Positions 17,777-33,498 of a stretch of 64,000 nucleotides of DNA are shown here, in pieces. Numbering within the stretch: position 1 is the stretch's first letter; each line of letters opens with the position of its first letter. Made by a program: the position numbers and the translations under genes. The stretch lies in NCBI GenBank assembly GCA_009995045.1, contig JAACQG010000009.1, forward strand, positions 26,037-90,036, read 5' to 3'. Origin of the DNA: Alphaproteobacteria bacterium (lineage in GTDB: Bacteria; Pseudomonadota; Alphaproteobacteria; Micavibrionales; Micavibrionaceae). Below the pieces are notes generated by a model. That model did not search any database and had not been told where the DNA came from. It saw only the letters and a list, made by a program, of their open reading frames with translations.

Positions 17777-18229
17777 ATGAACAGCCAAAACCATTGCTCA
17801 CAAACAAAAACTGCCGCATCGCCATATGCATTAAACGACACAACGCCATTCGAAAGCGCGCAAGAGGCTTGGTTCTGGTTCATGGCGGCGCAGGATGCAA
17901 AAAATGATGGGGCTAAGTTTGTCGCGGGGGCTGGTTTGTATAAACGCCCGTGTGAACCGATTGATATTCTAAAGGTTCTTGATCGCCTCCACCGTAATCG
18001 CCGCCTCGATCGCGATCACCTTCTCGTGCTGCGCCATTATGGTCGCCGCCACATGCCGCCCGATCAATTCCGCGCCAAAGAAAAACGCAGCTTTCATGTG
18101 TGGAGCGAGGCATTGGAGAGGATCGAAAAAGTGCTCATCGCTAAAGGAATCGTGGAGAGAAAATCCACATTCGACTTCCCTGCCTATATCCAAAATGAAG
18201 CCGCTTTATTCGCAGGAGCCGCGCAATAA
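17777..18229 (+). CDS. Phage-cassette protein of unknown function, first gene
   Basis: The ATG at 17777 follows AGAAGGAC, giving 150 residues; a TTG 30 codons upstream lies in the promoter and is not used. The protein has an aromatic EAWFWFMAAQDAK segment, KRPCEPIDILKVLDRL, a basic patch HRNRRLDRDHLLVLRHYGRRHMPP and a helical tail. Proteins with this pattern lead short-tailed prophage clusters in other alphaproteobacteria as far as I recall, but no function is known to me. The basic helical character would fit a nucleic-acid-binding or regulatory role (inference). It overlaps the next gene by one base. Confidence 0.75.
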   Translation: MNSQNHCSQTKTAASPYALNDTTPFESAQEAWFWFMAAQDAKNDGAKFVAGAGLYKRPCEPIDILKVLDRLHRNRRLDRDHLLVLRHYGRRHMPPDQFRAKEKRSFHVWSEALERIEKVLIAKGIVERKSTFDFPAYIQNEAALFAGAAQ

Positions 18230-18663
18230 TGAGCCAAACACCGCACAATAAACCAAAAGCATGGGTCGTGTTCAGCGGCCAGGCCGACATAGCATGGCTT
18301 AAAATCCTCAAATCAGGATACCGCCATTGCTATGTGCTGCTAAGCGACGGCAAGCATTGGATCACCATTGATCCGCTGTCGAATTATATGGATATCACGG
18401 TGCATGACCTGCCGCTTGATTTTAACCTGCCGCTATGTATGCAAAATCGCGGTCACATGATCATGCCCGCCGATATACGCCACATCGATAAACAAGCGCC
18501 ATGGATGCCCTTTAGCTGCGTTGAGGCGGTCAAGCGCGTTCTCGGCATTCATCGCCGACGCATCATTACACCGTGGCAGCTTTATCGGTATTTGTGCAAA
18601 CAGCAAACCGCCAAAACATGTCAACACGCATCATCACAAGGAGATTTCGCATGGGAAGCCTAA
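18229..18663 (+). CDS. Phage-cassette protein, possible permuted papain-like enzyme
   Basis: The 144-residue protein begins at the TAATG junction with the previous gene. A histidine in SGYRHCYVLL is followed by HWITIDPLSNYMDI and, about 80 residues later, a cysteine in PFSCVEAVKRVLGI. This His-then-Cys order is seen in circularly permuted NlpC/P60 (LRAT/YaeF-like) folds. The resemblance is by eye only. The gene precedes the portal region and may encode a virion-associated or lysis-related enzyme, or a structural protein. No signal peptide is visible. Confidence 0.7.
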   Translation: MSQTPHNKPKAWVVFSGQADIAWLKILKSGYRHCYVLLSDGKHWITIDPLSNYMDITVHDLPLDFNLPLCMQNRGHMIMPADIRHIDKQAPWMPFSCVEAVKRVLGIHRRRIITPWQLYRYLCKQQTAKTCQHASSQGDFAWEA

Positions 18664-18911
18664 CATCAGGGCCAAAAGCGCCCACCCCACAGCCACAAGT
18701 GGTCTATCTGCCGCAAACACCAAGCCCGACAACGCCCGTTCAAACACCGACCGCGCCAAGCGCGCAGGAAACATCGGCGGAAATACGAAAGCAAAACCTA
18801 CTCGGTCGTGAACGCAGCCGTTTCGGCACAATCCAAACCAGCTTTCGCGGCTTGCTAGGCCTGTCTGATACAGGCGGCGCGCAATCACGCAAGACATTAT
18901 TAGGAGAATAA
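18651..18911 (+). CDS. Small phage-cassette protein upstream of the portal
   Basis: The ATG at 18651 follows AAGGAG by seven bases and overlaps the end of the previous gene by 13 bases. The 86 residues begin with a Pro/Thr/Gln-rich stretch and end with a basic motif (LLGRERSRFGTIQTSFRGLLGL). A short protein of this type often stands directly before the portal gene in alphaproteobacterial short-tailed prophages. Its role is unknown; a scaffold- or neck-related part is possible. The stop is one base before the portal start. Confidence 0.75.
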   Translation: MGSLTSGPKAPTPQPQVVYLPQTPSPTTPVQTPTAPSAQETSAEIRKQNLLGRERSRFGTIQTSFRGLLGLSDTGGAQSRKTLLGE

Positions 18912-18912
18912 A

Positions 18913-20538
18913 ATGCCAGCATCCCAAAAACAGCCACATGACAATGACGCGCTCAAAGCGCTTCAGCTAAAGATGGCATTCATCCTCAAGCGTTTCGACG
19001 CCGCCCATAAAAAGCGTAAAAATTGGGAAAGCCTATGGGATGAATGCTACGATTACGCCCTGTCACAGCGCGGCGGATTCACATCATCCCCCGTCAGCGG
19101 TGGCAAACGCACCCAAGATATATACGACGCAACCGCCATGGACGCCGCCGACCAACTTGCCTCAAGCATGCTTGGCAATTTAACGCCGACATGGTCGCAA
19201 TGGTTCGGCCTAAAACCCGGCCCTGATTTAACCGATGCCGAGGCCGAGCGCCTCGCACCGATTTTGGAAAAAGCCGCCAAAACAATTCAGGATCATTTCG
19301 ACCGCTCAAATTTCGCCGTGGAAATTCACCAATGTTACCTCGACCTGATTGTCGGCGGCACAGCGAGTATGAATTTCGAAGAATCACAAATCGGCAGTTT
19401 CTCCGCGTTTAAATTCTCCGCCACACCGCTCACGCATATTGTTTTGGAGGAGGGCGATAACGGCTATCTTGATGGTGCGTTTCGCCAGATGAGATTAACG
19501 CTCGACCAAATCACATCGCGCTACCCCAATGCCGCGATCCCTGCGGAGATATTGAAACGCGCCGCGCAAAACCCGCAAGAGACATTCAAGATTTTGGAAT
19601 CGGTTCTGCCTGATGCGCTGATTTATGAATATCACGCGTTGTTGATGGAAGATGAGGACAGCCCCGTCCTCCTTGCGACAGGGAAATTTGCGCAAAGCCC
19701 CGTGATCTCATTTCGCTGGCTCAAATCACCGGGTGAAATTTACGGACGCTCGCCCGTGATGAAAGCATTGCCCGATATCAAAACCGCCAATAAGGTCGTG
19801 GAGCTAGTCCTTAAAAACGCCTCTATCGCGGTCACGGGGATCTGGCAAGCCGATGATGATGGCGTCCTGAACCCCGCCAATATCGAGCTAACCCCTGGCA
19901 GCATCATCCCCAAGGCGATCGGCTCAAAAGGCCTGCAGCCGCTGGACATGCCCGGTCGTTTCGATATCTCTCAGCTTGTCCTCGAAAGCCTACAATCGCG
20001 CATCCGTCACGCATTGCTTGCCGATAAGCTCGCCCCCGTTGCATCACCAAAAATGACCGCGACCGAGGTGATCGAACGCAGCGCGGAAATGTCGCTTTTG
20101 CTTGGTGCAACATATGGTCGCCTGCAATCCGAGCTTTTAACACCGCTCATCAAACGCGCCTTCGCCATCCTCAAACGCCGCGGTGAAGTGCCCGATATCG
20201 ATCTTGATGGACGATTGGTCGTGGTCGATTACCGCTCACCGCTGGCGCGCAGCCAAGGGCAAAAGAACGTGCAAAACACGCTGAGCTGGATTTCGTCCGT
20301 CCTCGCCATGGGGCCTGAAGCCTCCGCCGCAGTAAATCTGCCGCAAGCCGCAAGGTTCTTGGGTGACGCGCTGGGCGTGCCGAGTGATCTGATCCGAAAG
20401 GATATCCCGCAATTGAATTTGGGCGATCTGGTCAAAGCCATTGATCCAACTATTGCCGCCGAGAATGCGCCAACGCCAACGCCAAAACAAACCGCAACAC
20501 CCAAACCAGAAAAAGAGAAAATAGGAGAACCAGTATGA
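18913..20538 (+). CDS. Portal / head-to-tail connector protein (short-tailed phage type)
   Basis: The 541-residue protein starts after GGAG and carries the head-tail connector family features: KKRKNWESLWDECYDYALSQRG, then DATAMDAADQLASSMLGNLTP, the WFGL segment and a C-terminal TATEVIERSAEMS helix. This is the podovirus portal type (T7 gp8-like, Pfam Head-tail_con). The dodecameric portal sits at one capsid vertex and passes DNA. It overlaps the next gene by an ATGA junction. The length is normal and no lesion is seen. Confidence 0.93.
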   Translation: MPASQKQPHDNDALKALQLKMAFILKRFDAAHKKRKNWESLWDECYDYALSQRGGFTSSPVSGGKRTQDIYDATAMDAADQLASSMLGNLTPTWSQWFGLKPGPDLTDAEAERLAPILEKAAKTIQDHFDRSNFAVEIHQCYLDLIVGGTASMNFEESQIGSFSAFKFSATPLTHIVLEEGDNGYLDGAFRQMRLTLDQITSRYPNAAIPAEILKRAAQNPQETFKILESVLPDALIYEYHALLMEDEDSPVLLATGKFAQSPVISFRWLKSPGEIYGRSPVMKALPDIKTANKVVELVLKNASIAVTGIWQADDDGVLNPANIELTPGSIIPKAIGSKGLQPLDMPGRFDISQLVLESLQSRIRHALLADKLAPVASPKMTATEVIERSAEMSLLLGATYGRLQSELLTPLIKRAFAILKRRGEVPDIDLDGRLVVVDYRSPLARSQGQKNVQNTLSWISSVLAMGPEASAAVNLPQAARFLGDALGVPSDLIRKDIPQLNLGDLVKAIDPTIAAENAPTPTPKQTATPKPEKEKIGEPV

Positions 20539-20831
20539 TATTCGACCTCATGAAACCACGATACGAATTGCCGATCACCCCTGCGGAAAAGGGCTTAACC
20601 TACGCTCAGCCGGAACCCGGAAAAATTGAGAGGCGCGACATCGAAAAAACTTTTGCTCGCCTATTCTCAACCGATGACGGCCAAAAAGTCCTCGCCCACC
20701 TACAGGTCATAACCTTTCAACGGGCAATGGGGCCGGGCGTTGCCGATGAGCATTTACGCTATATCGAGGGACAACGCTCCATGGTCGCAACCATCCTGCG
20801 CCTCATCGACCGTGGCAGAAAACCGAGATAG
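20535..20831 (+). CDS. Bbp19-like phage protein
   Basis: The 98-residue protein overlaps the portal stop by four bases. The segment FARLFSTDDGQKVLAHLQVITFQRAMGPG followed by DEHLRYIEGQRSMVATILRLI is the pattern of the Bbp19 family, named after Bordetella phage BPP-1. Members sit just after the portal in short-tailed phages; their exact role is not established. Translational coupling with the portal suggests a part in head assembly. Confidence 0.8.
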   Translation: MIFDLMKPRYELPITPAEKGLTYAQPEPGKIERRDIEKTFARLFSTDDGQKVLAHLQVITFQRAMGPGVADEHLRYIEGQRSMVATILRLIDRGRKPR

Positions 20832-20872
20832 TCAAAACCCAAATTTAATACTCAACCAAAGGAGAAAACCAA

Positions 20873-21484
20873 ATGACAAACTTACTCATCGAAGATGTCG
20901 ACCCATCCATCGTCCCCGACAAATTCAAAAACCCGGAAACAGGGGCAATCCGCCTCGATGCGCTTGTGAATTCATACGGGGAATTGGAAAAGAAAATGTC
21001 GGAAAAACCAACGCATAACGCCCCCGCATCGCATGAGGATTATTGCGTTAATTGCGACCACGGCATGTTCCAACCCGACAATGACATCAACCAACGCCTC
21101 CACGCCAAGGGCATGAGCCAAGAACAGGTGCAGGAAGTCTATGATCTTGCGGCTGAAAAAATGGTGCCAATGGTCAAACAAATCGCGGGCGATTTCAGCG
21201 CCGATCAATGGAAAGAAGTCTCCCGCCAGCTATTGGCATTTGGAAACCGCAACCTTCCCGCTGATGTGCTTGAAAATCTATCAAGCTCCTATGAGGGTGT
21301 GCTTGCGCTGCATAAAATGATGCAATCCGAAGAACCATCAATGAAAAAACAAACCGCCAACCCATCGAAAACAGGCAGCGAAGATTTACAATCCATGATG
21401 CGTGATCCCAAATATTGGCGTGACAAAGATCCCGCCTTTGTTAAAAAGGTGACCGAGGGATTCCAAACGATATACGGTGAATAA
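20873..21484 (+). CDS. Probable scaffold / capsid assembly protein
   Basis: The 203-residue protein follows a strong AAAGGAG site. It is acidic and helical, with a conserved start (VDPSIVPDKFKNPETG) and a C-terminal RDPKYWRDKDPAFVKKVTEGF motif, typical of podovirus capsid assembly proteins lying between portal and capsid genes. No protease domain is present, which agrees with T7-like heads. A CVNCDHG segment near residue 58 is unusual but does not form a full zinc site. A strong terminator follows. Confidence 0.75.
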   Translation: MTNLLIEDVDPSIVPDKFKNPETGAIRLDALVNSYGELEKKMSEKPTHNAPASHEDYCVNCDHGMFQPDNDINQRLHAKGMSQEQVQEVYDLAAEKMVPMVKQIAGDFSADQWKEVSRQLLAFGNRNLPADVLENLSSSYEGVLALHKMMQSEEPSMKKQTANPSKTGSEDLQSMMRDPKYWRDKDPAFVKKVTEGFQTIYGE

Positions 21485-21490
21485 CAAGAT

Positions 21491-21522
21491 AAGCCCCGAT
21501 CACATGATTGGGGCTTTTTTTT
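21491..21522 (+). terminator. Strong terminator closing the portal-scaffold operon
   Basis: AAGCCCC...GGGGCTT forms a stem of at least ten pairs followed by eight T residues. It separates the first phage operon from the opposite-strand PilZ gene. Confidence 0.9.
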
Positions 21523-21523
21523 A

Positions 21524-21913
21524 TTAATGCGCGAGCTGGGATTCTGCGAATTTTGAAGAGACATAATCATCAACGACCAATTGCAAACCTTTGCGCATTG
21601 TGTCGCTTAAAGGATCAAATTCAAATGCAATGCGATCATTGCTCTTGCGAACAACCCGCGCAGTATGCGGCAAATCAATCACATCATTGCTTAGCTTAAA
21701 TTTCATGGTGACATCAACCGTTGTGTTCACACCAAAGCCCCGCGAATCGCCGTTGACAGCAACACCGCCCATTGACCAATTTTCAACAGGATAAATTTGA
21801 CCATCAATAACAACAGCTGAATTATCACAAGAACGTCGCGAAAACCGCCTGCGCGTGGAATATTGCTCATTGGTGTTTTCCGCTTTTAAACCTGAAAAGA
21901 GTGTTTCAAACAT
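21524..21913 (-). CDS. PilZ-domain c-di-GMP-binding protein inserted in the phage cassette
   Basis: The ATG at 21913 follows GGGGAG by about seven bases and gives 129 residues; an upstream in-frame start would add 24 unlikely residues. The PilZ signature is present: the arginine motif RRRFSRR and the turn NWSMGGVAV, where the usual Asp of D/NxSxxG is Asn, which the motif allows. PilZ domains bind c-di-GMP. It stands alone on the minus strand between scaffold and capsid genes and diverges from the capsid promoter, so it is an accessory gene and not a virion part. Its target is unknown. Confidence 0.85.
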   Translation of the reverse strand: MFETLFSGLKAENTNEQYSTRRRFSRRSCDNSAVVIDGQIYPVENWSMGGVAVNGDSRGFGVNTTVDVTMKFKLSNDVIDLPHTARVVRKSNDRIAFEFDPLSDTMRKGLQLVVDDYVSSKFAESQLAH

Positions 21914-21997
21914 ATGTGCTCCCCGTGCATGTCTATTATTGATTAAATGCATTATAAGGATTCGATCATAAAAATGCAAGTTCACACAAAATAACCC

Positions 21998-22026
21998 TTG
22001 ACATTATAGGAATAATATCCTATATT
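21998..22026 (+). promoter_or_regulatory. Strong promoter of the capsid operon
   Basis: TTGACA (21998-22003) and TATATT (22021-22026) are spaced by 17 bases. The leader to the capsid ATG is about 175 bases, unusually long, and contains a large hairpin. Confidence 0.75.
22007..22022. promoter_or_regulatory. Candidate operator C between -35 and -10 of the capsid promoter
   Basis: TAGGAATAATATCCTA is the core of a longer inverted repeat, TATAGGA-N6-TCCTATA (22005-22024). Its position between the promoter elements is that of a classic repressor site. The same palindrome type occurs at 17627 and 17663. Confidence 0.6.
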
Positions 22027-22055
22027 TAAATCATCAACACCACCAATGTATCTTA

Positions 22056-22114
22056 AAACATGCGGTTAACGCGGATTGCACCCCTACGGTGTTTATTCAT
22101 GCGCCCGCATGTTT
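22056..22114 (+). ncRNA. Structured leader hairpin of the capsid mRNA
   Basis: AAACATGCGG (22056-22065) and CCGCATGTTT (22105-22114) form ten perfect pairs. Inside, GCG/CGC (22071-22073 with 22102-22104) and CACC/GGTG (22079-22082 with 22088-22091) extend the fold. A further small hairpin GAGG/CCTC lies at 22155-22168. No terminator T-run follows, so it is probably a cis-acting leader or mRNA-stabilising element. Confidence 0.5.
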
Positions 22115-22209
22115 CTCGCGTATGGCCGTTCTTAAACGATGAATGAAAACCACAGAGGGCCGAGCCTCAACCCCCGAACATAACCCATTAAAAACAAAAG
22201 GATAAATTT

Positions 22210-23043
22210 ATGTCTACATCAATAGATCAGGCCTTCATCAAGCAATTCGAACGCGAAGTGCATGAAGCCTATCAGCGTCAGGGATCAAAACTGAGAAACA
22301 CTGTACGCACCATTTCAAACGTCAATGGCAGCTCGGCAGTCTTCCAAAAAGTCGGCGTGGGAACGGCCTCAACAAAATCCACACACGGTCTCGTCCCTGT
22401 TATGAACCTCGATCATTCCAATATCGAAGTCACACTTCAAGATTATTACGCGGGCGATTGGATTGACCGCCTTGACGAGCTAAAAATCAACATCGACGAA
22501 CGCCAAGTCATCGCCAGCGCAGGTGCAAATGCATTGGGCCGTAAAACCGATGAACTGATCATCGACCAACTTGCCAGTGCGTCGGCGACCACAATTGCGG
22601 ATGGCAATATCGGCCTCACCAAAGATAAAATCCTCAACGCATTCGAAAGCTTTGGCGAAAATGATGTGCCTGATGACGGCCAACGTTTTTGTATCGTCGG
22701 ATGGAAGCAATGGAGCGAGCTACTCTCAATCGATGAATTCGTAAAGGCGGACTACATCGGCAATGACGCCCTGTCATTTGCATCCATCACACAAGCCAAA
22801 ATGTTCCTCGGCACAATATTCATTCCGCATTCCGGCCTTCCGATTGATGGAAATGATATCCGATCATGTTTCTGGTATCACAAAACCGCAGTCGGTCACG
22901 CAAGCGCATCCGATGTGGAAACAGATGTCAGCTGGCACGGCGACCGCGCCGCACATTTTGTGAACAACATGATGAGCCAGGGCGCAGGCCTAATCGACGA
23001 AAACGGAATCATCACAATCAATTGTGACGAAACTCCCGATTAA
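22210..23043 (+). CDS. Major capsid protein (Phage_capsid_2-like)
   Basis: The 277-residue protein follows an AAAAGGA site. It begins with a helical N-arm (IDQAFIKQFEREVHEAYQRQGSKLR) and contains LQDYYAGDWIDRLDELK and HKTAVGHA segments, the pattern of the HK97-fold capsid proteins of alphaproteobacterial short-tailed prophages. It is transcribed from its own strong, apparently repressible promoter, which fits the high copy need of a shell protein. No delta-domain or maturation protease is seen. Confidence 0.88.
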   Translation: MSTSIDQAFIKQFEREVHEAYQRQGSKLRNTVRTISNVNGSSAVFQKVGVGTASTKSTHGLVPVMNLDHSNIEVTLQDYYAGDWIDRLDELKINIDERQVIASAGANALGRKTDELIIDQLASASATTIADGNIGLTKDKILNAFESFGENDVPDDGQRFCIVGWKQWSELLSIDEFVKADYIGNDALSFASITQAKMFLGTIFIPHSGLPIDGNDIRSCFWYHKTAVGHASASDVETDVSWHGDRAAHFVNNMMSQGAGLIDENGIITINCDETPD

Positions 23044-23061
23044 ATCTTAATCCCCTCCCTG

Positions 23062-23135
23062 TGTCATCCTGAAGGGCTTTAGACCTGAAGGATCTCCTAA
23101 ATCAATGAGATCCTTCGCTGCCGCTCAGGATGACA
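23062..23135. repeat. Nested palindromic intergenic repeat (GTCATCCTGA type)
   Basis: TGTCATCCTGA (23062-23072) is inverted at 23125-23135, and GAAGGATCTC (23087-23096) at 23107-23116. The GTCATCCTGA...GAAGGATCT pattern is a widespread REP/MITE-like repeat in bacterial genomes. It sits between the capsid gene and the next small gene and could act as a transcription attenuator. Confidence 0.7.
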
Positions 23136-23163
23136 TTCTTTAAATTTGAAAGGAACACCCATC

Positions 23164-23403
23164 ATGGCTTTTAACCCATCAGATATAAGCGTACTCGCCT
23201 ACGCCAATAACTTCACGCTGTGGCACGTCGCCACAACGGATGCCGACGTAACAACCGAAGGCTATTTCGATACAGCCGCCGAATTGTTGCGCGTCAATGA
23301 CCTCGTGATCGCGAATGTCGATACCGATGGAACCCCCGCCACGACGTTCTATGTCGTCACCGGCAATAGCGGCGGCAATGTGACAATCGCAGCTTACGCA
23401 TAA
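23164..23403 (+). CDS. Small beta-rich phage protein after the capsid, possible decoration protein
   Basis: The ATG at 23164 follows AAAGGA; a TTG 18 bases upstream lies before that site. The 79 residues contain no long helix and end YVVTGNSGGNVTIAAYA, a beta-rich pattern. Small proteins encoded directly after the capsid gene are often head decoration proteins or spikes, but no family was recognised. The call rests on position only. Confidence 0.65.
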   Translation: MAFNPSDISVLAYANNFTLWHVATTDADVTTEGYFDTAAELLRVNDLVIANVDTDGTPATTFYVVTGNSGGNVTIAAYA

Positions 23404-23619: not shown

Positions 23620-24189
23620 ATGGCACTCAACGACGTGGCATTGTGTTCACGCGCGCTCATTCGCATTGGCGCCGCACCCATTACATCATTCAACGGCGGC
23701 ACCGCCGAAAGCGAAATCGCAGGGGCGCTATACGGCTCAACCCGTGACGCGCTGCTCTCTGCCTATCGCTGGAGTTTCGCCAGCGCGCAGCTTGCCCTCT
23801 CACAACGCGCAGCCGACCCCATCGCCGATTACAGCTTCGCTTACCAACTGCCCAATGACTTCCTGCGCGCCGTCTCGGCTGGAACAGGTGCGCGGGGGCG
23901 TGGCCTCAATTACCGCATCGCCCGAGGCGCGCTTAACACCAACGCAAGCGCAGTTGTGCTGACCTATATTTTTCGCCCCGATGAGGCAGAATTCCCGCCT
24001 TATTTTGACCAAGCGCTCATCGCGCGGCTATCGGCGGAATTCACAATCCCCATCACCGAAAGCACAAGCCGCGCCGAAAGCCATTTCCGTATCGCCGAAA
24101 ACGAATACGAACGCGCCCGCCAAATCGACGCCCAACAAGATACTCCCAATAGAATCGAAAACTTTTCTCTCATTGATGTGCGTGATTAG
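23620..24189 (+). CDS. Tail tubular protein A (T7 gp11-like adaptor)
   Basis: The 189-residue protein starts after AAGGAG. The segments LNDVALCSRALIRIGA, RDALLSAYRWSFA and DYSFAYQLPNDFLRAVS are hallmarks of gp11-like tail tube A proteins, which form a ring joining portal to tail nozzle. The length fits the family. It lies directly after a strong terminator, and no clear promoter was seen in the 20 bases between, so some read-through is needed unless a promoter lies inside upstream sequence. Confidence 0.88.
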   Translation: MALNDVALCSRALIRIGAAPITSFNGGTAESEIAGALYGSTRDALLSAYRWSFASAQLALSQRAADPIADYSFAYQLPNDFLRAVSAGTGARGRGLNYRIARGALNTNASAVVLTYIFRPDEAEFPPYFDQALIARLSAEFTIPITESTSRAESHFRIAENEYERARQIDAQQDTPNRIENFSLIDVRD

Positions 24190-24256: not shown

Positions 24257-24754
24257 ATGAGCGCAGAACGCAGCAATCCCGAACTTGATTTATCATCTGT
24301 ATTCCGTCATCCGGAAATGGAAAATCTTGTGTATGCATTGCTGAGTGACCCGAGCCATTTCTTTGACGTTTTATCAGAAACTGACTTATCTGTATTTGAT
24401 GATGGAAACCCAGAAATGCAGAACAGAGTTTTATCTGCGGGGTTCAAAAAAGCTGCAAATCCGGGGGTCGTTGACATTGTAACCTTACTGCGTGCACATC
24501 CTAGAGAAACGATAAGTCTTTTCTTATGGGCGAAAGAACTATCCGAAGGTGTGCCTGATTTAGAAGCCAGCATTAAACCAGATGATCCAATCATGGAGTT
24601 TTTCGCCAAAGTTGGTTTCTTGAACGAACGGGCGACTGGCCCTGCTAACTCGGTCTTTGAAATCTTGGGGCTTGAAATCCCTGAGCGTATGGGACGAATG
24701 AGAACACCAAGGCGTCAACAATTGCTTGATATTCAAGGGCCTTCACGCTCATAA
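24257..24754 (+). CDS. Accessory (moron-like) protein of unknown function between tail genes
   Basis: The 165-residue protein matches no family I recognise. It is acidic and mostly helical, with no signal peptide or membrane helix. It is AT-richer than the tail genes around it and has its own apparent promoter and a dedicated terminator, the layout of a moron: a phage-carried gene expressed apart from the lytic genes. No ribosome site is visible and the promoter spacing suggests leaderless translation. Host-benefit or phage-exclusion roles are possible, but nothing in the sequence shows one. Confidence 0.7.
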   Translation: MSAERSNPELDLSSVFRHPEMENLVYALLSDPSHFFDVLSETDLSVFDDGNPEMQNRVLSAGFKKAANPGVVDIVTLLRAHPRETISLFLWAKELSEGVPDLEASIKPDDPIMEFFAKVGFLNERATGPANSVFEILGLEIPERMGRMRTPRRQQLLDIQGPSRS

Positions 24755-24845: not shown

Positions 24846-26744
24846 ATGACCCGAATTCGTGAAACAAAAACCACATTCACCGCTGGCGAGGTTTCGCGTG
24901 AGCTCCTTGGTCGCGGTGATCTTCGTGCCTATGAAAACGGTGCGCTTGCCCTGCGCAATGTGTTCATCAACCCGACGGGCGGCGTCACCCGTCGTGCCGG
25001 TCTTGGCTATATTGACACCGCACCCGGCGACGGCAAGCTAATCGCGTTTGAATTCAATAGCGAGCAAACATCGCTCCTTGTCATCACTGATGAACAAATT
25101 GATATCTATACAGGCGGCGTGAAAGAGGCGAGCATTTCGGCCCCGTGGACAGCGGCGCAAATCGACCAGCTCGCATGGACGCAAAGCGCCGATACGCTGT
25201 TGCTCACCCACCCCGATGTGTCGCCGAAAAAGCTGGTGCGCAGTGCCAATGCTTCATGGAGCCTCAACGATTGGGTGTTCTTCATCAAAGATAACATCAA
25301 AAGCCAGCCCTATTACAAATTTGCCGCCAGCAATGTCACCCTCACACCCAGCGCAACCAGTGGAAGCATCACCCTCACCGCGTCTGAGGGTGTTTTTACG
25401 CTCGCGCATGAAGGAACACGCTTGCGCGTTGCGGGCAAGGAAGTCGAAGTCACCGATTACGACTCTCCAACCGTTATAAGGGTAAGTGTGCTGGAAGAAT
25501 TACCAAACACCGACCCGACAATTGATTGGTTCGAACAAGCCTTTAGCGCCGCCCGCGGATATCCAGTGACCGTGGCATTCCACCAAGATCGCCTTGTCAT
25601 CGGTGGCTCGCGTGATTTGCCCAACCGCCTCTGGTTTTCAAAATCTGGAGATTTGTTCAATTTTGACCTGGGCGAGGGATTGGACGATGAAAGCATCGAG
25701 TTTTCAATCCTCTCCGATCAGGTCAATGCAATACGCGGCATATTTTCCGGTCGCCATCTACAGGTTTTTACATCGGGCGCGGAATGGCAAGTCACGGGAG
25801 ATCCGCTCACGCCGTCATCGGTGCAAATTCGCCGCCAAACCCGCATCGGATCGCGCATCGACAGATACGTGCCGCCAACAAATGTAGACGGCGCAACGTT
25901 ATTCATCGCGCGCAACAAACAAGAGGTGCAGGAATTCCTTTATACCGATCTGGAGCAAGCCTATAAATCTAGCGACCTCGCGCTCTTGTCAAAAAGCGTG
26001 ATCATCGACCCTATAGATATGGATTACGATTCAAAACGCAGGCTTTTATTCCTCGTGCGCAGCGACGGAAAATTTGCCGCCCTGACTGTGTTTCGCGCGG
26101 AAAGCGTGGCAGCATGGACACTGCATAATACGCTGGGGCAGGTTAAATCGGTTGCGGTTGTCGGCGATGATGTCTTCATGCTGGTTGAGCGCGGCGGCGC
26201 GTTCCTCGTTGAGCAGCTAGACGACGCCCTCAACCTCGACAGTGCATTAACGGGCGAGATTGCCTCCCCCGCAACCCAATGGTCAGGATTAGATCATCTG
26301 AACGGCGAGAGCGTTTCAATTGTGGCCGATGGTGAGGTTAAGCAAAACCAAATCGTCACCAGCGGCCAAATCACATTGGACGAGCCCGCCAAGGCAATCC
26401 AAATCGGTTTGCCATACACCCATATCATCGAACCCCTCCCGCCAAGCGAGCTGGGCGCGGCAGGGGGGGGGCGGCGTATTCGTCTGGTCGAGGGGCTGTT
26501 TCGCCTGCAAGATACACAAAGCTTGCGGCTGGATGTCGGGCGCGGGCTGCATGATATTGCCCTGCGTCAGCTTGGCGAAGACCCCATCCTCGACAGCGCC
26601 CCACCCAGCGTCAGCGGCGATATCCGTGTGCGCGCATTGGGCTGGCAACCTGACGGTACGCGAGCCTTGTGGCGCATCGAACAAGACGTACCACTAGCCT
26701 TCACCCTGCTATCGGTCACCACCGAGATTAAGGTGAATGATTAA
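24846..26744 (+). CDS. Tail tubular protein B (T7 gp12-like nozzle)
   Basis: The 632-residue protein starts after AAAAAGGA. Its start (KTTFTAGEVSRELLGRGDLRAYENGALALRNVFINPTGGVTRR) is the conserved signature of gp12-like nozzle proteins, followed by FEFNSEQTSLLVIT and a beta-propeller-like body with HQDRLVIGGSRDLPNRLWFSKSGD. It forms the tail nozzle below the gp11 ring. The length is normal and no frameshift is seen. Confidence 0.9.
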   Translation: MTRIRETKTTFTAGEVSRELLGRGDLRAYENGALALRNVFINPTGGVTRRAGLGYIDTAPGDGKLIAFEFNSEQTSLLVITDEQIDIYTGGVKEASISAPWTAAQIDQLAWTQSADTLLLTHPDVSPKKLVRSANASWSLNDWVFFIKDNIKSQPYYKFAASNVTLTPSATSGSITLTASEGVFTLAHEGTRLRVAGKEVEVTDYDSPTVIRVSVLEELPNTDPTIDWFEQAFSAARGYPVTVAFHQDRLVIGGSRDLPNRLWFSKSGDLFNFDLGEGLDDESIEFSILSDQVNAIRGIFSGRHLQVFTSGAEWQVTGDPLTPSSVQIRRQTRIGSRIDRYVPPTNVDGATLFIARNKQEVQEFLYTDLEQAYKSSDLALLSKSVIIDPIDMDYDSKRRLLFLVRSDGKFAALTVFRAESVAAWTLHNTLGQVKSVAVVGDDVFMLVERGGAFLVEQLDDALNLDSALTGEIASPATQWSGLDHLNGESVSIVADGEVKQNQIVTSGQITLDEPAKAIQIGLPYTHIIEPLPPSELGAAGGGRRIRLVEGLFRLQDTQSLRLDVGRGLHDIALRQLGEDPILDSAPPSVSGDIRVRALGWQPDGTRALWRIEQDVPLAFTLLSVTTEIKVND

Positions 26745-26800: not shown

Positions 26801-27163
26801 ATGGCTATAAGCATAAAATTTGACGAGCAATCAGTTCTGCCGGAATTGGCGCGACAATTAGTTGATACATTGAAGAAAAACCCAGCAGCAGTTGTGTTGG
26901 GCATAGAAGATGATGGATCGAGAGCAGATATAGTCTTTGGTTTGGATGGCACTCCTTCAACAGAAGAGCGATTTATATATACGGACGTAGATGTATTGGT
27001 TGGGGCAAAGGCGCATTGTGCAAGTAAAGAGCCCGAGTTTACGCCCCAGTTACAAGGTTACATTGAGAGAGTATCCGCACTTGTGAATAGTCCTGCGGGG
27101 CCGATAAGAAGCCCAGGATCTTTAGCGCGTCAAGCACCAGAGCCATCAACGTCATTAGATTAA
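26801..27163 (+). CDS. Second accessory (moron-like) protein of unknown function
   Basis: The 120-residue protein follows TAGGTGAG and is AT-rich compared with the tail genes. It has a helical start (ELARQLVDTLKKNPAAVVLGIEDD), beta strands and a disordered Pro/Ser-rich tail. No family was recognised. Like the 24257 gene it has an apparent own promoter and a strong terminator, and it interrupts the tail gene order. It could be a regulator, an anti-phage factor or a defence inhibitor; the sequence does not say which. Confidence 0.7.
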   Translation: MAISIKFDEQSVLPELARQLVDTLKKNPAAVVLGIEDDGSRADIVFGLDGTPSTEERFIYTDVDVLVGAKAHCASKEPEFTPQLQGYIERVSALVNSPAGPIRSPGSLARQAPEPSTSLD

Positions 27164-27237: not shown

Positions 27238-27738
27238 ATGGGAGCAATCACCCCAATTGCAAGCGGCCTAACAACGCTTGTCGGTGCGCTTGGCACTGCA
27301 AACCAACTCGCGGGGACAATCCAAACTCTGAGCGGTAATAGCCCGCAGCGCCAAGAACAAGATTTAGCGCTCAAGCAATTGCAGGAGCGTCAAACACTGA
27401 GCGCCGCCCAGCTCGCGCAGGACAACGCGCTAGAGCGCGAGCGCATCGCCTTGCAAGGGGCGCAAGATGAGGACGATCGCCGCGCCGCTCTACGCCGCGC
27501 TGTCGCCCGTCAACGCGCCAGCTTCGGCGCGAGCGGTATCAGCCAAGATAGCGGCGGCTCATCACAGGCGGTCTTGCTTGGTCTGTTCGATGAAACAGAA
27601 ACCGACCTCGCACAGCGCGAGCAGCTCGACACACTGCGAAACCGCGCCCTTGATTTAGACAGCGCCCAAAACAAAAGCCTTAACCTGCTTCAGGCAACCC
27701 AGCTCAAACAACGCCAAGACCTCAACCGCTTATTCTAG
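27238..27738 (+). CDS. Small internal virion / ejection-type protein
   Basis: The 166-residue protein starts after AAAGGAG. It has a hydrophobic Gly/Ala-rich start (about 5-30), then a long Gln/Arg/Ala-rich coiled coil (about 38-105) and a second helix at the end. It lies between tail tube B and the tail spike, the place of the T7 internal virion proteins, and resembles gp14-type proteins in size and composition. The large partners gp15 and gp16 are absent. The role is inferred from position. Confidence 0.7.
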   Translation: MGAITPIASGLTTLVGALGTANQLAGTIQTLSGNSPQRQEQDLALKQLQERQTLSAAQLAQDNALERERIALQGAQDEDDRRAALRRAVARQRASFGASGISQDSGGSSQAVLLGLFDETETDLAQREQLDTLRNRALDLDSAQNKSLNLLQATQLKQRQDLNRLF

Positions 27739-27748
27739 GAAATTCATC

Positions 27749-29770
27749 ATGCCCGAACACGTTAAAGTGCCGGACATAACGCCAATCACGCGTTATGTCG
27801 CTAATGGCACGCAAACTGATTTCTCATACCCATTCCCGATTTTCGCCTCCGAAGACCTCGCTGTCTATATTGATGGCGCACGCCAGGCAAGCGGCTATAC
27901 GATCAATGGCGCAGGACAAAGCATGGGCGGAAGCGTTACATTTGATACCGCGCCCGCTATGGATTCCGTCCTCACATTTGCCCGTGAGCTAGCCATCGAG
28001 CGTATAACCGACTTCCTTGAAGGCGGGGATTTCAGCGCGCAATCCATCAATAACGAACTTGACTATATGGTCGCCGCCCTCCAACAGGTCAGCCTTGAAA
28101 ATACGGCAATGCTCCGCTATAGCGACAATGAAGCCCCCGCGAAAACCGAGCTACCCGCGCGCAACCTCCGCGCCAATAAAGGCCTCGGCTTTGACGGCAA
28201 TGGCAACCCGATCGCGCTAGATTTAAGCGGCGCGGCTGCGTCCCCCGATTTCACCGCAAGCGGGACAGGCGCATCAACACGCACCGTCACCGATAAGCTG
28301 GGCGACGCGGTATCAGTTAAAGATTTCGGCGCAAAAGGGGACGGCCTGACCAATGACACCATCGCCATTCAAAATGCCCTGGCCGCAAATGACAGCGTAT
28401 TCTTGCCCGCGGGTGAGTATCTTATCAGTGGCACAATCACGATCACGGCGCGAAAAGCGTTAATCGGCGCAGGGCAGAAATCGGTGCTGAAATGCAATGG
28501 TCAAAATTTCAACGCCGTTGAGATCACCGAGGATCATGCCGCCCTCCATAATTTGCGCATCATCGGCGGTGATATCGGCATTAAGCTGTTTGGCAAAACC
28601 CGCCCATGCGTACAAACCGCCATCAGTGATATAACGATTGTCGGCCCCAATATCGGCGTACAATTAGATGGCTATAACAACACCAATTTCCCCTGCTATT
28701 GGAACACGTTAAGCCGCGTCCTTGTGGAGCAGTTTAAGCTGCACGGTTTCCACCTCACGCGCAGCGGGGCGGGGGACACGCCAAACGCCAATAAATTCCA
28801 CGCATGCCGCGCATATTCCCTCGGCGAGCCATCAACGGGGCATGGCTTTTACATCGAAGAAGGGCGCTTTAACAACTCCCTCATCGACTGCGAAGCCAAT
28901 GTCAACGGCACCGCACAAGGGTGTTTCACGATTGGCGCGGGCTGCGATAAAACCTTGCTCATTAATCCCTATGCGGAGAGTTTTAACAGCGTCCCCAATA
29001 TCAAGCTTGAGGCAGGATCAATCGAAACCTCGATCTTTAATCTGCTTTCGGTCAGTGACGGCGCGGCCATTTGGGATTTGTCCGGCGGGGAATATACCGC
29101 CTATAACGCGGGCTTTCCTTATAAGAACCGCATGCAGCGCACAACCTGTACGGACATGACCGCCACCCTACAAAGATATGACACTGAATTTATAGATACG
29201 CAAGGTATCGTATCGCTCGATACATCCCATTCTGTGCATCTTGTGTCCAGCTTCGGCGGGGCGCTAACCGTTAATCTTCCCAATGCGGCGGATGCGGTTG
29301 GGGCAATGATGGTCATCAAGAAAACCGACAGCTCAAGCAACGTCATCACCATCAAAGAAACTGGGGGCGCTGGCCCCGATGGGCGTGATTATTTCCTCGG
29401 CGCGGAAAATGATTTCATGATGGCGCAATCCAATGGCGCGGAGTGGTTTGTCTTATCCTCAAACCGTGCGCCCGGCAATACGCGCTTTTTCGACGGCAGC
29501 GGAACCTATGACATCGACATGGCGGTCGATAGCTATTTGCTCTCGTCATTCGGCGGCGCAATGACCGCCCGCCTGCCGCCCGCGAATTCATCACAGGCAA
29601 TCGGACGCACCATCACGATCAAGAAAACCGACCCCTCATCCAATACCATCACGGTCACGGAGCAGGGCGCAACCGGCCCCGATGGATACGCACAGCCATT
29701 AAACAGCCAATATAATGCCATCACAGTCGTATCAAATGGCGGCCAATGGTACATCATCAACCGCTTCTAG
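27749..29770 (+). CDS. Tail fibre/spike with T7-like N-terminus and beta-helix domain
   Basis: The 673-residue protein has a virion-binding start like T7 fibre proteins (ITRYVANGTQTDFSYPFPIF, then SINNELDYMVAALQQ; about 1-130). A pectate-lyase-3-type beta-helix follows, beginning VKDFGAKGDGLTNDT near residue 190. The C-terminus holds two repeats of about 80 residues, each running from a SSFGGA(L/M)T core through IKKTD(S/P)SSN to an (E/Q)WFV or QWYI strand. The beta-helix suggests binding or cutting of a surface polysaccharide. Which residues are catalytic is not clear. Confidence 0.88.
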   Translation: MPEHVKVPDITPITRYVANGTQTDFSYPFPIFASEDLAVYIDGARQASGYTINGAGQSMGGSVTFDTAPAMDSVLTFARELAIERITDFLEGGDFSAQSINNELDYMVAALQQVSLENTAMLRYSDNEAPAKTELPARNLRANKGLGFDGNGNPIALDLSGAAASPDFTASGTGASTRTVTDKLGDAVSVKDFGAKGDGLTNDTIAIQNALAANDSVFLPAGEYLISGTITITARKALIGAGQKSVLKCNGQNFNAVEITEDHAALHNLRIIGGDIGIKLFGKTRPCVQTAISDITIVGPNIGVQLDGYNNTNFPCYWNTLSRVLVEQFKLHGFHLTRSGAGDTPNANKFHACRAYSLGEPSTGHGFYIEEGRFNNSLIDCEANVNGTAQGCFTIGAGCDKTLLINPYAESFNSVPNIKLEAGSIETSIFNLLSVSDGAAIWDLSGGEYTAYNAGFPYKNRMQRTTCTDMTATLQRYDTEFIDTQGIVSLDTSHSVHLVSSFGGALTVNLPNAADAVGAMMVIKKTDSSSNVITIKETGGAGPDGRDYFLGAENDFMMAQSNGAEWFVLSSNRAPGNTRFFDGSGTYDIDMAVDSYLLSSFGGAMTARLPPANSSQAIGRTITIKKTDPSSNTITVTEQGATGPDGYAQPLNSQYNAITVVSNGGQWYIINRF

Positions 29771-29781
29771 AAAGGCCACAT

Positions 29782-30084
29782 ATGCTCAAAATTGAACAGG
29801 GAATGCGGCGCGATATCGCCGTATTTCTGCCCAATGCCATGAAAACCACAATCCAATCTTATATCAGCTTTTCCGAAGAGCAAGCCACAAACCCAGAAGG
29901 TGACGTGTCGCCCAAATCATTCAAAGAACATCACGATGCCTGCAAAGTCTGCATCGCCCATATCGAGCTTCTCATCAAGCTCGCGCAATGGGCGGATATT
30001 CCGCCGCCTGAATTTGAGGGCGAGTTGGAAAACGCCATTTTACGATCAGTCATCGAAAACGCAAACGCCGAATTAGGACGCTAA
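29782..30084 (+). CDS. Small protein directly before the large terminase, candidate small terminase
   Basis: The ATG at 29782 follows AAAGG; it encodes 100 residues. The protein is mainly helical with a central EHHDACKVCIAHIELLIKLAQWA segment. In T7-like and related phages the small terminase or its neighbour lies directly before the large subunit, and here the gap is three bases. No DNA-binding motif is clear, so the small-terminase role is only positional. Confidence 0.65.
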   Translation: MLKIEQGMRRDIAVFLPNAMKTTIQSYISFSEEQATNPEGDVSPKSFKEHHDACKVCIAHIELLIKLAQWADIPPPEFEGELENAILRSVIENANAELGR

Positions 30085-30087
30085 GCC

Positions 30088-31614
30088 ATGGAAGAAATCG
30101 TTGATATGCCAACGTGTTATAATCCACAAAGCACGAAACACGATATAACAGATGCGGATTTAGCATTGTTTTTGGTGGCGTGGAATCAGGCAATGAAAAT
30201 GCGTACGCCGCAAATCCACCTGAAAATAGCAAGGTGGCTGGAATGGAATTGGAGCTGCGGCAACACGCGCTTACTGCTGATGGCGTTTCGAAGTGCGGGT
30301 AAAAGCACGATTGTCGGCCTGTTTGCCGCGTGGCTTTTATATCGCCAGCCAAATTTGCGAATCCTCGTGCTGGCGGCGGATCTGACCTTGGCGAAAAAGA
30401 TGGTGCAAAATGTCAAACGAATCATCGAACGCCACCCCCATACAAAAAAGCTCAAGCCCAATAAGGCCGAGCAATGGGCATCTGACCGTTTCACCATCAA
30501 GCGTATGTTTGAGGCGCGCGATCCATCTATGCTGGCAAAGGGCATTACCGCCAACATCACCGGATCACGCGCCGATATCATTATCTGTGATGATGTTGAG
30601 GTTCCCAACACATGCGACAGCGCCGAAAAGCGCCTCGCCCTGCGTGAGCGATTGGCGGAAATGCAATATGTCCTCGTCCCCGATGGCACGCAGCTTTATG
30701 TGGGCACGCCACATCATTACAACACAATCTACGCCGAAGAGCCGCACGAGGAATTGGGCGAGGATCACGCGTTTCTAAGCGATTTCAAGCGCCTCTCACT
30801 GCCCATAATGGACAAAGATGGCAATAGCATTTGGCCGGAGCGTTACACGAAATACGATATCAAGCGCATGAAACGCGCCAGCGGCCCGAATAAATTCGCC
30901 AGCCAAATGATGCTAGAGCCACGCAACCTCATTGAGGGGCGGCTCAACGCGGCGCGGCTGAAGGTGTATGATGATGAGCTCGATTATACCAAGGAAATAC
31001 AGACCCTTTTCCTCGGGCAAACAAAGCTCGCCGCCTCCAGCACATTCTGGGACCCCGCATTCGGCAGCGAAAAAGGCGATCACAGCGTTGTGGCGGTCAT
31101 TTTCACCGATGCTGATGGGCATCATTACCTGCATCACATCGCCTATATCAAAATCAATGACGCCGATAAGCAGGACGAAGCCACACAGCAATGCAAAGCC
31201 ATCGCCCAAATCGCCAAGACGCATTATCTGCCCTCAATCACGGTGGAGACAAACGGCATCGGGAAATTCTTACCCAAATTACTGCGCAATGAATTATCCG
31301 CCGCTCACGCGCCATGCACGGTGCGCGAGTGCCATCAAAGCCAAAACAAGGATATGCGTATCATCGAAGCCTTCGATGCCATCCTCGCTAGCGAGCGCTT
31401 ATCCGTCCACCGATCTGTATTGAAAACACCGTTTATGGGCGAGATGCAGGAATGGCGACCTGGCGCGAATAGGGGGCATGATGATGGCTTGGATGCCGTC
31501 GCAGGGGCGCTCGCCCAAATCCCTGACCATTTGCCACGCATATACGGCAAAGGCGCACATAGCTGGATGCGTGGACAAAAACCCCACAAAGCCAGCACCG
31601 ATTTTAAAATCTAG
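30088..31614 (+). CDS. Terminase large subunit (DNA packaging motor)
   Basis: The 508-residue protein has an ATPase domain with Walker A R68-S-A-G-K-S-T74 and Walker B DIIICDDVE (about 163-171). A nuclease domain follows, with acidic residues in FWDPAFGSEKGDHS, TVETNGIG and GHDDGLDAVAGAL. It cuts and pumps DNA into the head. Both domains look complete, so the packaging motor is probably functional. It is the podovirus type. The packaging mode (unit-length or headful) cannot be read from the sequence alone. Confidence 0.93.
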   Translation: MEEIVDMPTCYNPQSTKHDITDADLALFLVAWNQAMKMRTPQIHLKIARWLEWNWSCGNTRLLLMAFRSAGKSTIVGLFAAWLLYRQPNLRILVLAADLTLAKKMVQNVKRIIERHPHTKKLKPNKAEQWASDRFTIKRMFEARDPSMLAKGITANITGSRADIIICDDVEVPNTCDSAEKRLALRERLAEMQYVLVPDGTQLYVGTPHHYNTIYAEEPHEELGEDHAFLSDFKRLSLPIMDKDGNSIWPERYTKYDIKRMKRASGPNKFASQMMLEPRNLIEGRLNAARLKVYDDELDYTKEIQTLFLGQTKLAASSTFWDPAFGSEKGDHSVVAVIFTDADGHHYLHHIAYIKINDADKQDEATQQCKAIAQIAKTHYLPSITVETNGIGKFLPKLLRNELSAAHAPCTVRECHQSQNKDMRIIEAFDAILASERLSVHRSVLKTPFMGEMQEWRPGANRGHDDGLDAVAGALAQIPDHLPRIYGKGAHSWMRGQKPHKASTDFKI

Positions 31615-31624
31615 GAGACAGCCC

Positions 31625-31921
31625 ATGGAATATTACGAAATGCTCGCCGGTATCACCATAAGCCTGTTCGCTGCAATCTTGGGCGCGATCTGGCGCAAAG
31701 CCGACCGCGCAGAAAAAATGGCGGAAAGTAACAAGGTGATCCTCACCTATCTCAGCCGCAATCTGGATAAAACCAGCAACCTCAATGAACGCCTCAGCTC
31801 ATTAGAGGCATCATTCGGCGCAGAGATCAAAAACCTCTCAATCTCAATCAAACGCATGGAAAGCGCCCTCATCAGGATGGATCAAATCGCATCATGCCAT
31901 CCCGCAAGCCGCCCGTCCTGA
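31625..31921 (+). CDS. N-anchored coiled-coil protein, possible inner-membrane spanin or lysis accessory
   Basis: The ATG at 31625 follows GGAGACAG. The 98 residues begin with one membrane helix (YEMLAGITISLFAAILGAIW) and continue as a charged coiled coil. This topology is that of i-spanins or holin accessory proteins, and the gene lies next to the endolysin and holin. No outer-membrane spanin lipoprotein was found embedded or adjacent, so the spanin call stays open. Confidence 0.65.
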   Translation: MEYYEMLAGITISLFAAILGAIWRKADRAEKMAESNKVILTYLSRNLDKTSNLNERLSSLEASFGAEIKNLSISIKRMESALIRMDQIASCHPASRPS

Positions 31922-31970
31922 GGCCTGTCCCCTTGGGCAATCATGAAATTAAAATAAAAGGAATTCACAG

Positions 31971-32462
31971 ATGAAAAAACCAACTTTGACCGCTATCGGC
32001 GGATCGGATGTGCCACCGCGCAGCGACGCCGAGGCGTTCTATCGCAACCTTGAAAACGACGTTCTTGCCCGCACATTATGGGGCGAGGCAAGGGGCGAGG
32101 GCACAATCGGCCCTGAGGCGGTTGCAAATGTCATTCAAAATCGCGTGAAAACCGCCCAAGACAATGGCGGTAAATATTGGTGGGGTGGCAACATCATTCA
32201 GGTCTGCCAAAAACCCTATCAATTTTCTTGCTGGAACCGCTCCGACCCATCATTCAAAAAACTACAAGCCGTTGGCGAGGATGACCTCTATTTCGCAACC
32301 TGCCTGCGCATTGCCCGCCGCGCGGTGCTGGGGCAGTTAAACGACCACACGGGCGGCGCCACCCATTACCACGCCGATTATGTCGCGCCATATTGGGCCA
32401 AGGGTGAAACCCCGACCGTCACCATCGGGCGCCACATTTTCTACGATTTGAAAGGGCTATAA
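31971..32462 (+). CDS. SleB-family cell wall hydrolase (endolysin)
   Basis: The 163-residue protein carries the Hydrolase_2/SleB domain: ARTLWGEARGEG with the catalytic glutamate at residue 39, then AVANVIQNRV, SCWNRSDP and THYHADYVAPYWA near the end. The family cleaves peptidoglycan. No signal peptide is present, so release through the nearby holin is expected. It lies between the membrane-anchored coiled-coil gene and DUF4262. The same enzyme type serves as the endolysin in many alphaproteobacterial prophages. Confidence 0.9.
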   Translation: MKKPTLTAIGGSDVPPRSDAEAFYRNLENDVLARTLWGEARGEGTIGPEAVANVIQNRVKTAQDNGGKYWWGGNIIQVCQKPYQFSCWNRSDPSFKKLQAVGEDDLYFATCLRIARRAVLGQLNDHTGGATHYHADYVAPYWAKGETPTVTIGRHIFYDLKGL

Positions 32463-32500
32463 TTAACCCGGAATTAGGAAAAATCGTTTAAGCTCAACCA

Positions 32501-32941
32501 ATGAACAGCTACGAACAAAACGTGATAAAAAACATTGAGAAATTCGGCTGTAGCGTGACGCACGTTATGGCCGATGAGGATGGCCCTGGATTCACTTATT
32601 CTATCGGTATTCAGCAGCAAACCGCTAAACCCGAAGTCATCGTCGTTGGTCTACCGCCTAAGCTGATGCATTTTATGGTCAATGAATATAACAAGCGCGT
32701 AAAAGCAGGCGAAGAATTTACAGAAAATGAACTTTACGACGGCTTCATAGAAGATTTTCAAGTCACGTTCAAAGCAATCGACCCCAAACATTACGACGAT
32801 TATATGGGATCATGCCAATGGCTCTATAATGGTGATGATTTTCAGGTGTTTCAAATCGTTTGGCCAAGCACGTCAGGAAAATGGCCGTGGGACAAAGATG
32901 CCTCAGAGCAGTATCTCAATAGTATGACAATTTTATATTAA
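32501..32941 (+). CDS. DUF4262-family protein inserted in the lysis module
   Basis: The 146-residue protein has the DUF4262 pattern: HVMADEDGPGFTYSIGIQ, PEVIVVGLPPKLMHFMVNEY and DYMGSCQWLYNGDDFQVFQIVWPS. The family is found in scattered bacteria and phages with no settled function. It is AT-richer than the endolysin and has no obvious partner, so it looks like a third moron-type insertion, splitting endolysin from holin. Confidence 0.82.
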   Translation: MNSYEQNVIKNIEKFGCSVTHVMADEDGPGFTYSIGIQQQTAKPEVIVVGLPPKLMHFMVNEYNKRVKAGEEFTENELYDGFIEDFQVTFKAIDPKHYDDYMGSCQWLYNGDDFQVFQIVWPSTSGKWPWDKDASEQYLNSMTILY

Positions 32942-32952
32942 CGATATTCGAT

Positions 32953-33498
32953 ATGACGGATATCAAAAAAAGGATATCCAAAATGATCGAATCAATCCTC
33001 GCAAAAATCGGCTTACCGCTTTTAATTACCTTTATTTCAGAATCGCTTAGGGGCATTAATTCACCTGTCACCCGCACCGCCGCCGACGCGCTGGAGCGTG
33101 TCGATGATGCATTAAAGGCCGGAGCCATCACGCCCGAGCAAATGGCGGAGGCAAACAGGCATTTGGAGAATTTGGCGCAGCTAAAATCTGAGGAATTCAA
33201 GGTAACCCTTTCTGAAATAAACCAAACCATGCGCGCAGAAGTCGCATCACAAGATAAATATGTTCGCCGTATGCGCCCGACATTCGGGTATCTCATGGCG
33301 TTAACATGGGCGGCGCAAATGTTTGGAATTGCTTACGTAATTATTTTTGATACTGATCGTGCCGGTGCAGTTATGGCGGCCATGGGCTCGCTATCGGCCA
33401 TTTGGGGCATCGGCTTATCCGTTTTGGGCATCTACGTCTATCGCCGCAGCGATGATAAAAAGCTCCCCACGCCCGAAGTTATCTTTTGGAATAAATAA
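32953..33498 (+). CDS. 3TM holin of the gene-transfer-agent type
   Basis: The 181-residue protein has an amphipathic start, a helical middle (about 40-100, including TAADALERVDDALKAGAITPEQMAEA) and hydrophobic segments at about 112-132 and 140-162 next to the motif YVRRMRPTFGYLMA. This matches the GTA_holin_3TM family, which releases particles from alphaproteobacterial gene transfer agents and related prophages. It closes the cassette; nhaA begins 127 bases later. Confidence 0.82.
   Translation: MTDIKKRISKMIESILAKIGLPLLITFISESLRGINSPVTRTAADALERVDDALKAGAITPEQMAEANRHLENLAQLKSEEFKVTLSEINQTMRAEVASQDKYVRRMRPTFGYLMALTWAAQMFGIAYVIIFDTDRAGAVMAAMGSLSAIWGIGLSVLGIYVYRRSDDKKLPTPEVIFWNK

Follow-up and report, generated by a model that had tools for sequence, protein, structure and literature searches.

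The particles of RcGTA-type gene transfer agents (GTAs) are siphovirus-like. Here we describe a podovirus-type gene cassette at positions 17,777–33,498 of a 64,000-nucleotide stretch of DNA (the window; positions 26,037–90,036 of contig JAACQG010000009.1, assembly GCA_009995045.1) from a member of the Micavibrionaceae, and propose that it is probably a new, vertically inherited GTA of Alphaproteobacteria. The part of PMC9662315 used here gives six criteria for a GTA: particle proteins derived from caudoviricetes, packaging of mostly random host DNA, endogenization, an own genome that is not fully packageable, vertical inheritance and delivery of DNA to cells. The cassette, known from its genes alone, has caudoviricete-derived particle proteins as judged by protein similarity, which the first criterion allows, and it is a chromosomal locus, fully endogenized in its host genomes.

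The preliminary description of this stretch had read it as a full short-tailed particle set with a SleB lysin and a three-transmembrane (3TM) holin, every frame being intact. Profile searches of the open reading frames (ORFs) bore this out, matching the parts of a podovirus structural, packaging and lysis cassette and finding the named ones in frame and unbroken. On the forward strand lie the portal, or head–tail connector (18913–20538; PF12236, E = 2e-143), a Bbp19-like protein (20535–20831; PF25181, 1.3e-13), a T7-type scaffold (20873–21484; PF05396, 8.7e-8), the major capsid protein (22210–23043; PF19821, 3.5e-79), tail proteins A (23620–24189; phrog_394, 1.3e-41) and B (24846–26744; phrog_376, 4e-138), a pectate-lyase-like tail spike (27749–29770; PF12708, 2e-17; phrog_1640, 3e-27), a T7-type large terminase (TerL) with conserved catalytic motifs (30088–31614; NF033889, 1e-130), a SleB-type endolysin (31971–32462; PF07486, 6.4e-19) and a GTA-type 3TM holin (32953–33498; GTA_holin_3TM PF11351, 8.5e-12). 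The window genome (1.89 Mb, 93.75% complete) matches the cassette once, on the window's contig (C24).

Distribution and gene order

Among 58 genomes of relatives, the window's own included, 42 had a portal match, 38 at ≥53% identity and 4 at ≤34%; within the window's family the portal was found in 31 of 37 genomes. Across a class-wide sample of 387 genomes, 110 gave any portal match and 57, from 28 families, a strong one (≥300 bits; 39% identity or more), with identities clustering at about 50–60% and 25–34% and some intermediate. The locus was retrieved for 44 of these 57 genomes (window included), and a scan of genome collections yielded 488 loci, the best 80 of which were taken forward. Carriers include many members of Micavibrio, four named Azospirillum records, Skermanella, Telmatospirillum and other alphaproteobacteria. 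With a portal of this class in 38 of 58 relatives and strong portal matches in 28 families, the cassette extends well beyond a single genome, is of much greater age, and is no local prophage remnant.

Many cassette pieces are listed in IMG/VR as viral contigs (L269–L348). One of them (L269) encodes a g1 protein identical to that of the window, which, together with the number of catalogued pieces, makes it likely that some of these entries are host cassettes. A 5-kb human faecal record named 'Bacteriophage sp.' (MT838907.1), with a portal 53.5% and a capsid 58.9% identical to those of the window, probably represents a piece of a cassette of this kind.

Gene order was analysed in profile-annotated stretches of 20 kb (80 named loci, L022–L101, and 80 fetched ones, L129–L208), with ten low-identity loci (28–35%) kept apart as controls. 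A helix-turn-helix (HTH) gene faces the series g1, g2, g3, portal, Bbp19, scaffold, capsid, tails, gp14, spike, g15, TerL, lysin and holin. By a lenient measure, since gene-poor loci count as collinear, 64 of the 70 loci follow this order, and six (G201, G169, G168, G293, G114 and G427) depart from it. The HTH gene was recovered in 56 of the 70, g1 in 52, TerL in 44, the lysin in 31 and the holin in 24, some 20-kb stretches ending before the last genes. The f74 family loci G427 and G124 (38–42% portals) yielded little besides the portal.

An ordinary prophage that is defective and decaying after one or more integrations would account for structural parts with phage homologues, for the deleted, split or rearranged versions seen in some genomes and for the relatives that have no cassette. 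It fits poorly with the same order and facing HTH gene in many families. The ten control loci, moreover, had no match to the HTH protein, g1, lysin or holin, although one of them (G273) carries g2 and has the genes from portal to tail B in the same order, and among complete phage genomes the portal reaches at most 35% identity, against 53.5% for the unannotated 5-kb record. Taken with the evidence on inheritance given below, we regard a decaying prophage as highly improbable.

The variants themselves take several forms. In G043 and G015 the portal is kept and the middle of the cassette is missing. We looked for remnants in four of the six portal-less genomes of the window's family (the other two, G021 and G022, are 84% complete): in G003 the scaffold adjoins an HTH–PyrE fusion gene of the kind described below, G010 retains a TerL piece in place, G014 retains HTH–g1–g2, and G031 has no PyrE match. 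In four genomes of the order-mate family f5 (G040, G046, G048 and G051), pyrE is present with no cassette match within 1.5 kb. The preliminary description had named frequent absence from the same locus in sister strains as evidence against a GTA, and on this point it was not refuted: pieces are left in place in G003, G010 and G014, although the trace-free pyrE loci of f5 show that absence without remnants also occurs. Separately, the cassette looks split in genomes of 0.9 Mb (G114, G214, G419 and G293), with portal and g1 either separated by about 90 kb (G114) or placed on different contigs.

From the HTH gene to the lysis genes, the cassette measures 9.4–17.9 kb in 27 of 28 loci showing both ends (the rearranged G201 being excluded, and longer ones exceeding the 20-kb stretches). 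Compact versions of 9.4–9.8 kb occur in five f82 genomes of 1.1–1.5 Mb (G132, G226, G304, G369 and G429). The widest of the variable gaps separates the scaffold gene from the capsid gene (median 712 bp, reaching 9.8 kb through inserts in relatives); in the window it holds a PilZ-domain ORF on the reverse strand (21524–21985; PF07238, 3.3e-7), a cargo or host gene. A second insert, between lysin and holin, encodes a DUF4262 protein (32501–32941, forward; PF14081, 2e-41); with a DUF4262-seeded profile, the window copy was the only match among the annotated loci.

The remaining cassette genes are all on the forward strand. Upstream of the portal, g2 (18229–18663) encodes a conserved Cys/His protein, possibly cysteine-peptidase-like, and g3 (18573–18911) a small conserved protein whose start codon is uncertain. 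Neither g10 (24257–24754) nor g12 (26801–27163) has a family match, and the gene at 27238–27738 matches a T7 gp14-like internal virion protein weakly, under the family's cut-off (PF24072, E = 0.002). g15 (29746–30084; phrog_31793, 5e-12, function unknown) holds the small-terminase position, a guess from position only, and g17 (31478–31921; start uncertain) encodes a small protein between terminase and lysin. Elsewhere in the window, a 1296-aa ORF lies on the reverse strand at 59968–63858.

Inheritance, selection and mobility

Of 70 genomes, 69 had a match to the unlinked host marker LepA, which was retrieved for 60. Trees were compared for the 46 genomes (window included, controls excluded) in which LepA was accompanied by three or more of five cassette proteins. 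The cassette tree recovers 15 of the 19 LepA splits with support ≥0.9, and the Mantel correlation between cassette and LepA was 0.755, against a highest value of 0.62 in 2000 permutations. The other four LepA splits clash with strong cassette splits, two via the long branches G147, G126 and G224, one as a 19-genome split and one through the pair G025/G029. On this one marker gene, and with these four conflicts, the cassette has been vertically inherited and has co-diversified with its hosts.

As the preliminary description had proposed, we measured ratios of non-synonymous to synonymous substitution (dN/dS), which proved low: mostly 0.01–0.4 in nine close pairs, with g3 reaching 0.55 and several dS values saturated. 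In the four pairs having the neighbours nadK, pyrE and purC, cassette dS lies within the range of these genes. After removal of truncated sequences, the TerL residues that we take to be the Walker and nuclease motifs were conserved in all 47 near-full-length sequences (46 unique), two of which are gapped at the last motif. Gene order, LepA congruence, low dN/dS and conserved TerL residues together argue for domestication and purifying selection, and the conclusion that the cassette is domesticated and mainly vertically inherited is well supported; all four count against a decaying prophage.

Conservation of the terminase also bears on the idea that the domesticated particle has another job, either SOS-triggered killing or lysis, or delivery to prey by Micavibrio predators. 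The genus Micavibrio includes predators, many carriers belong to it and the spike is pectate-lyase-like. Yet a terminase with conserved sites, kept in 47 sequences, would be superfluous for an empty killing particle, and the cassette is also found in Azospirillum, Skermanella and Telmatospirillum, which to our knowledge are not predators. Such a role seems to us unlikely.

Among the ORFs scanned there was no match to an integrase, polymerase, primase or recombinase, in agreement with the preliminary description; TerL alone gave a marginal helicase-profile match. No tRNA was found in the window, and no att-like end repeat: the longest word shared by the ends (10 bp) is at the level of shuffled sequences (8–12 bp). 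The window genome has four integrase matches, all on other contigs among the matches listed. Integrases are present somewhere in 37 of 37 cassette genomes searched, the smallest distances to a cassette among the matches listed being about 21 kb (in G080) and no less than 32 kb (in G105). The linked integrase and att sites of an integrative prophage, which the preliminary description had singled out as contrary evidence, were thus not found at the window locus.

The housekeeping flanks claimed earlier were confirmed by family search for PyrE and NhaA; nadK, purC and icd were named from their translations. A nadK-type ORF lies ≤4 kb upstream in 77 examined loci (duplicate copies of one genome both counted), and was not seen in all Micavibrio relatives. 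Other neighbours are lysyl-tRNA synthetase upstream (L083 and L098) and dihydroorotate dehydrogenase downstream (L158).

A phage satellite or cargo-transfer element packaging its own 10–18 kb would agree with the range of HTH-to-lysis lengths. No integrase or replication gene was found, however, the cassette stands as one copy beside conserved neighbours, and the 23 plasmid records with a portal match all stay below 60% identity, the best among the matches listed being 33%. We consider a satellite very unlikely. The GTA interpretation has held against the genomic evidence that might have overturned it, and has gained evidence of domestication.

Proposed control of the g1 promoter

The preliminary description had reported no phage repressor, which has to be corrected: the window encodes a repressor-type HTH as part of a fusion with PyrE. 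The fusion protein (16722–17627, reverse strand) consists of an HTH region (about residues 1–75) and an orotate phosphoribosyltransferase (about 86–300; NF001729, 315 bits against an equivalog cut-off of 245), and is the only PyrE match in the window genome. Its HTH aligns to a separate protein that faces g1 in other species, mostly of 200–219 aa, and an S24 domain was confirmed by Pfam in the one separate protein tested (L101). In-frame fusions occur in 24 of the 80 named loci, plus the window and G003, while L031 and L074 have an 80–83-aa HTH beside a separate pyrE. In the window lineage, the S24 half of the repressor thus appears to have been replaced by PyrE. Control may then follow the pyrimidine state instead of repressor self-cleavage, which is speculation on our part.

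Three sites precede g1 on the forward strand of the window: a match to the relaxed form of a RogA-like operator, GAA-N4-TTCCT (17666–17677), TTGACT as a possible −35 element by consensus match only (17687–17692), and an SOS-type box, GAAC-N7-GAAC (17719–17733), which we take to be the alphaproteobacterial LexA box. We searched the spacers between the HTH gene and g1 (or g2 where g1 was not found), 121 in total and 102 after removal of duplicates. GAAC-N7-GAAC or GTTC-N7-GTTC occurs in 72 of the 102 (letter shuffles, mean 0.5 and maximum 3; other spacings, at most 4) and lies 31–32 bp downstream of TTGAC in 48 of the 59 unique spacers with both. Of 21 genomes, 13 carry the same box ahead of recA too, and other spacings were seen there in 2; the incomplete window genome gave no recA match at E 1e-60. 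Azospirillum loci L090 and L091 have the exact box, L101 does not. These sites suggest that cassette expression may be induced by the SOS response.

RogA, a LexA-like GTA repressor of Caulobacter, has GGAA-N4-TTCC repeats in its target promoter, according to a section of PMC9632790. A relaxed form, AGGAA-N4-TTC or GAA-N4-TTCCT, was present in 39 of the 102 unique spacers (shuffles 0.8, maximum 5). Before deduplication, 7 of 121 spacers had the exact GGAA-N4-TTCC and 49 the relaxed form, with a peak at spacer 4. If a RogA-type repressor is defined as an N-terminal HTH with a C-terminal S24 domain in about 213 aa, the separate cassette HTH proteins may be of this type, as judged by their size, the one confirmed S24 domain and the relaxed site rather than by alignment to Caulobacter RogA (CCNA_00080).

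The first gene of the operon, g1 (17777–18229, forward), encodes a helical protein that is possibly a Q-type antiterminator or late activator. Class-wide, 47 of 387 genomes have it, and 42 of these belong to the 57 with a strong portal match. No PDB match was obtained by sequence, none significant in Foldseek and none in the phage collection. Relatives of g1 are carried by three 38–41-kb contigs (L335, L338 and L348), one of them lambda-like by annotation, whose examined 20 kb contain no further gene of the cassette; contigs of this type are a possible source of g1. An identity with GafZ/GafA was dropped, since g1 tracks the portal genomes and its hhalign probability against DUF6456, presumably the GafZ domain, is 0.5%. 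Among 14 controls DUF6456 responds only in Caulobacter; it exceeded its cut-off in all 7 genomes tested that have the RcGTA marker GTA_TIM, and in none of the 7 cassette genomes tested, among which G253 gave a weak match (E = 8e-5). A GafY-type regulator was likewise set aside, the single PF08299 match in the window genome being a 488-aa frame taken for DnaA.

From these elements we can outline how the proposed GTA might work. A RogA-like HTH (with or without S24) repressor and the SOS-type box would hold the g1 promoter off until DNA damage lifts repression. g1 would then act in antitermination, letting polymerase traverse the 15-kb operon; short-tailed heads would be assembled and filled with host DNA by TerL, and the SleB lysin and 3TM holin would lyse the cell. 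On this reading, cassette particles would package host DNA and deliver it to other cells.

Relation to known particles

As an RcGTA marker we used the tail protein GTA_TIM (PF13547). It occurs in 40 of the 387 genomes, in none of the 57 with a strong portal and not in the window genome, giving a hypergeometric P of 0.0012 that ignores phylogeny. G199 and G319 combine GTA_TIM with low-identity portal matches (29% and 24%), and G115 with a marginal g1 match (E = 6e-4, 966-aa frame) and no portal match. If our proposal is right, DNA-transferring particles evolved in Alphaproteobacteria from a second, unrelated phage type and persist in lineages lacking RcGTA, including genomes of 1.1–1.5 Mb. A fuller picture, which we are inclined to doubt rather than to believe, is that of an ancient second class of alphaproteobacterial GTA, podovirus-derived and present in at least 28 families, replacing RcGTA where it is missing, switched by SOS and RogA, and rewired in Micavibrio to a PyrE-borne repressor half reading pyrimidine or phosphoribosyl pyrophosphate (PRPP).

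In the open-licence literature searched, with preprints outside its scope, we recognized no description of a podovirus-type GTA in Alphaproteobacteria. The GTAs of Rhodobacter type and of Caulobacter (RcGTA and CcGTA) are likewise alphaproteobacterial, chromosomal and vertically inherited sets of phage-derived particle genes; CcGTA may further resemble the cassette in its LexA-like HTH–S24 repressor with a GGAA-N4-TTCC site (section of PMC9632790) and in an activation that involves antitermination (sections of PMC9632790 and PMC11150451). They differ in being siphovirus-like where the window cassette is podovirus-like (part of PMC9662315), in that g1 shows no relation to DUF6456, and in that the cassette's own promoter carries the SOS-type box. 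FpGTA of Faecalibacterium is, by its description in part of PMC12946183, a GTA-like element with short-tailed phage genes; it belongs to another phylum, and the likeness is one of description rather than of compared sequences.

Pelagibacter phage EXVC031P Hodr and the HTVC010P-type pelagiphages also rank among the closest known systems. Hodr, the nearest complete phage (capsid 50.5%, portal 35%), has the order portal, Bbp19, scaffold, capsid and tails found in the cassette. Its genome, however, is that of a 34-kb phage, with no match to HTH, g1 or g2 in the 23.7 kb examined. If right, our proposal points to a gene cluster that can be tested in named Azospirillum, Skermanella and Telmatospirillum strains.

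Azospirillum particles were reportedly siphovirus-like in morphology in a 2008 paper. According to part of PMC3899980, mitomycin induces in Azospirillum particles with about 10 kb of host DNA that were called a GTA and have no settled gene cluster, the authors favouring siphovirus-like prophages. As four named Azospirillum records carry the cassette, it is a candidate source of these particles.
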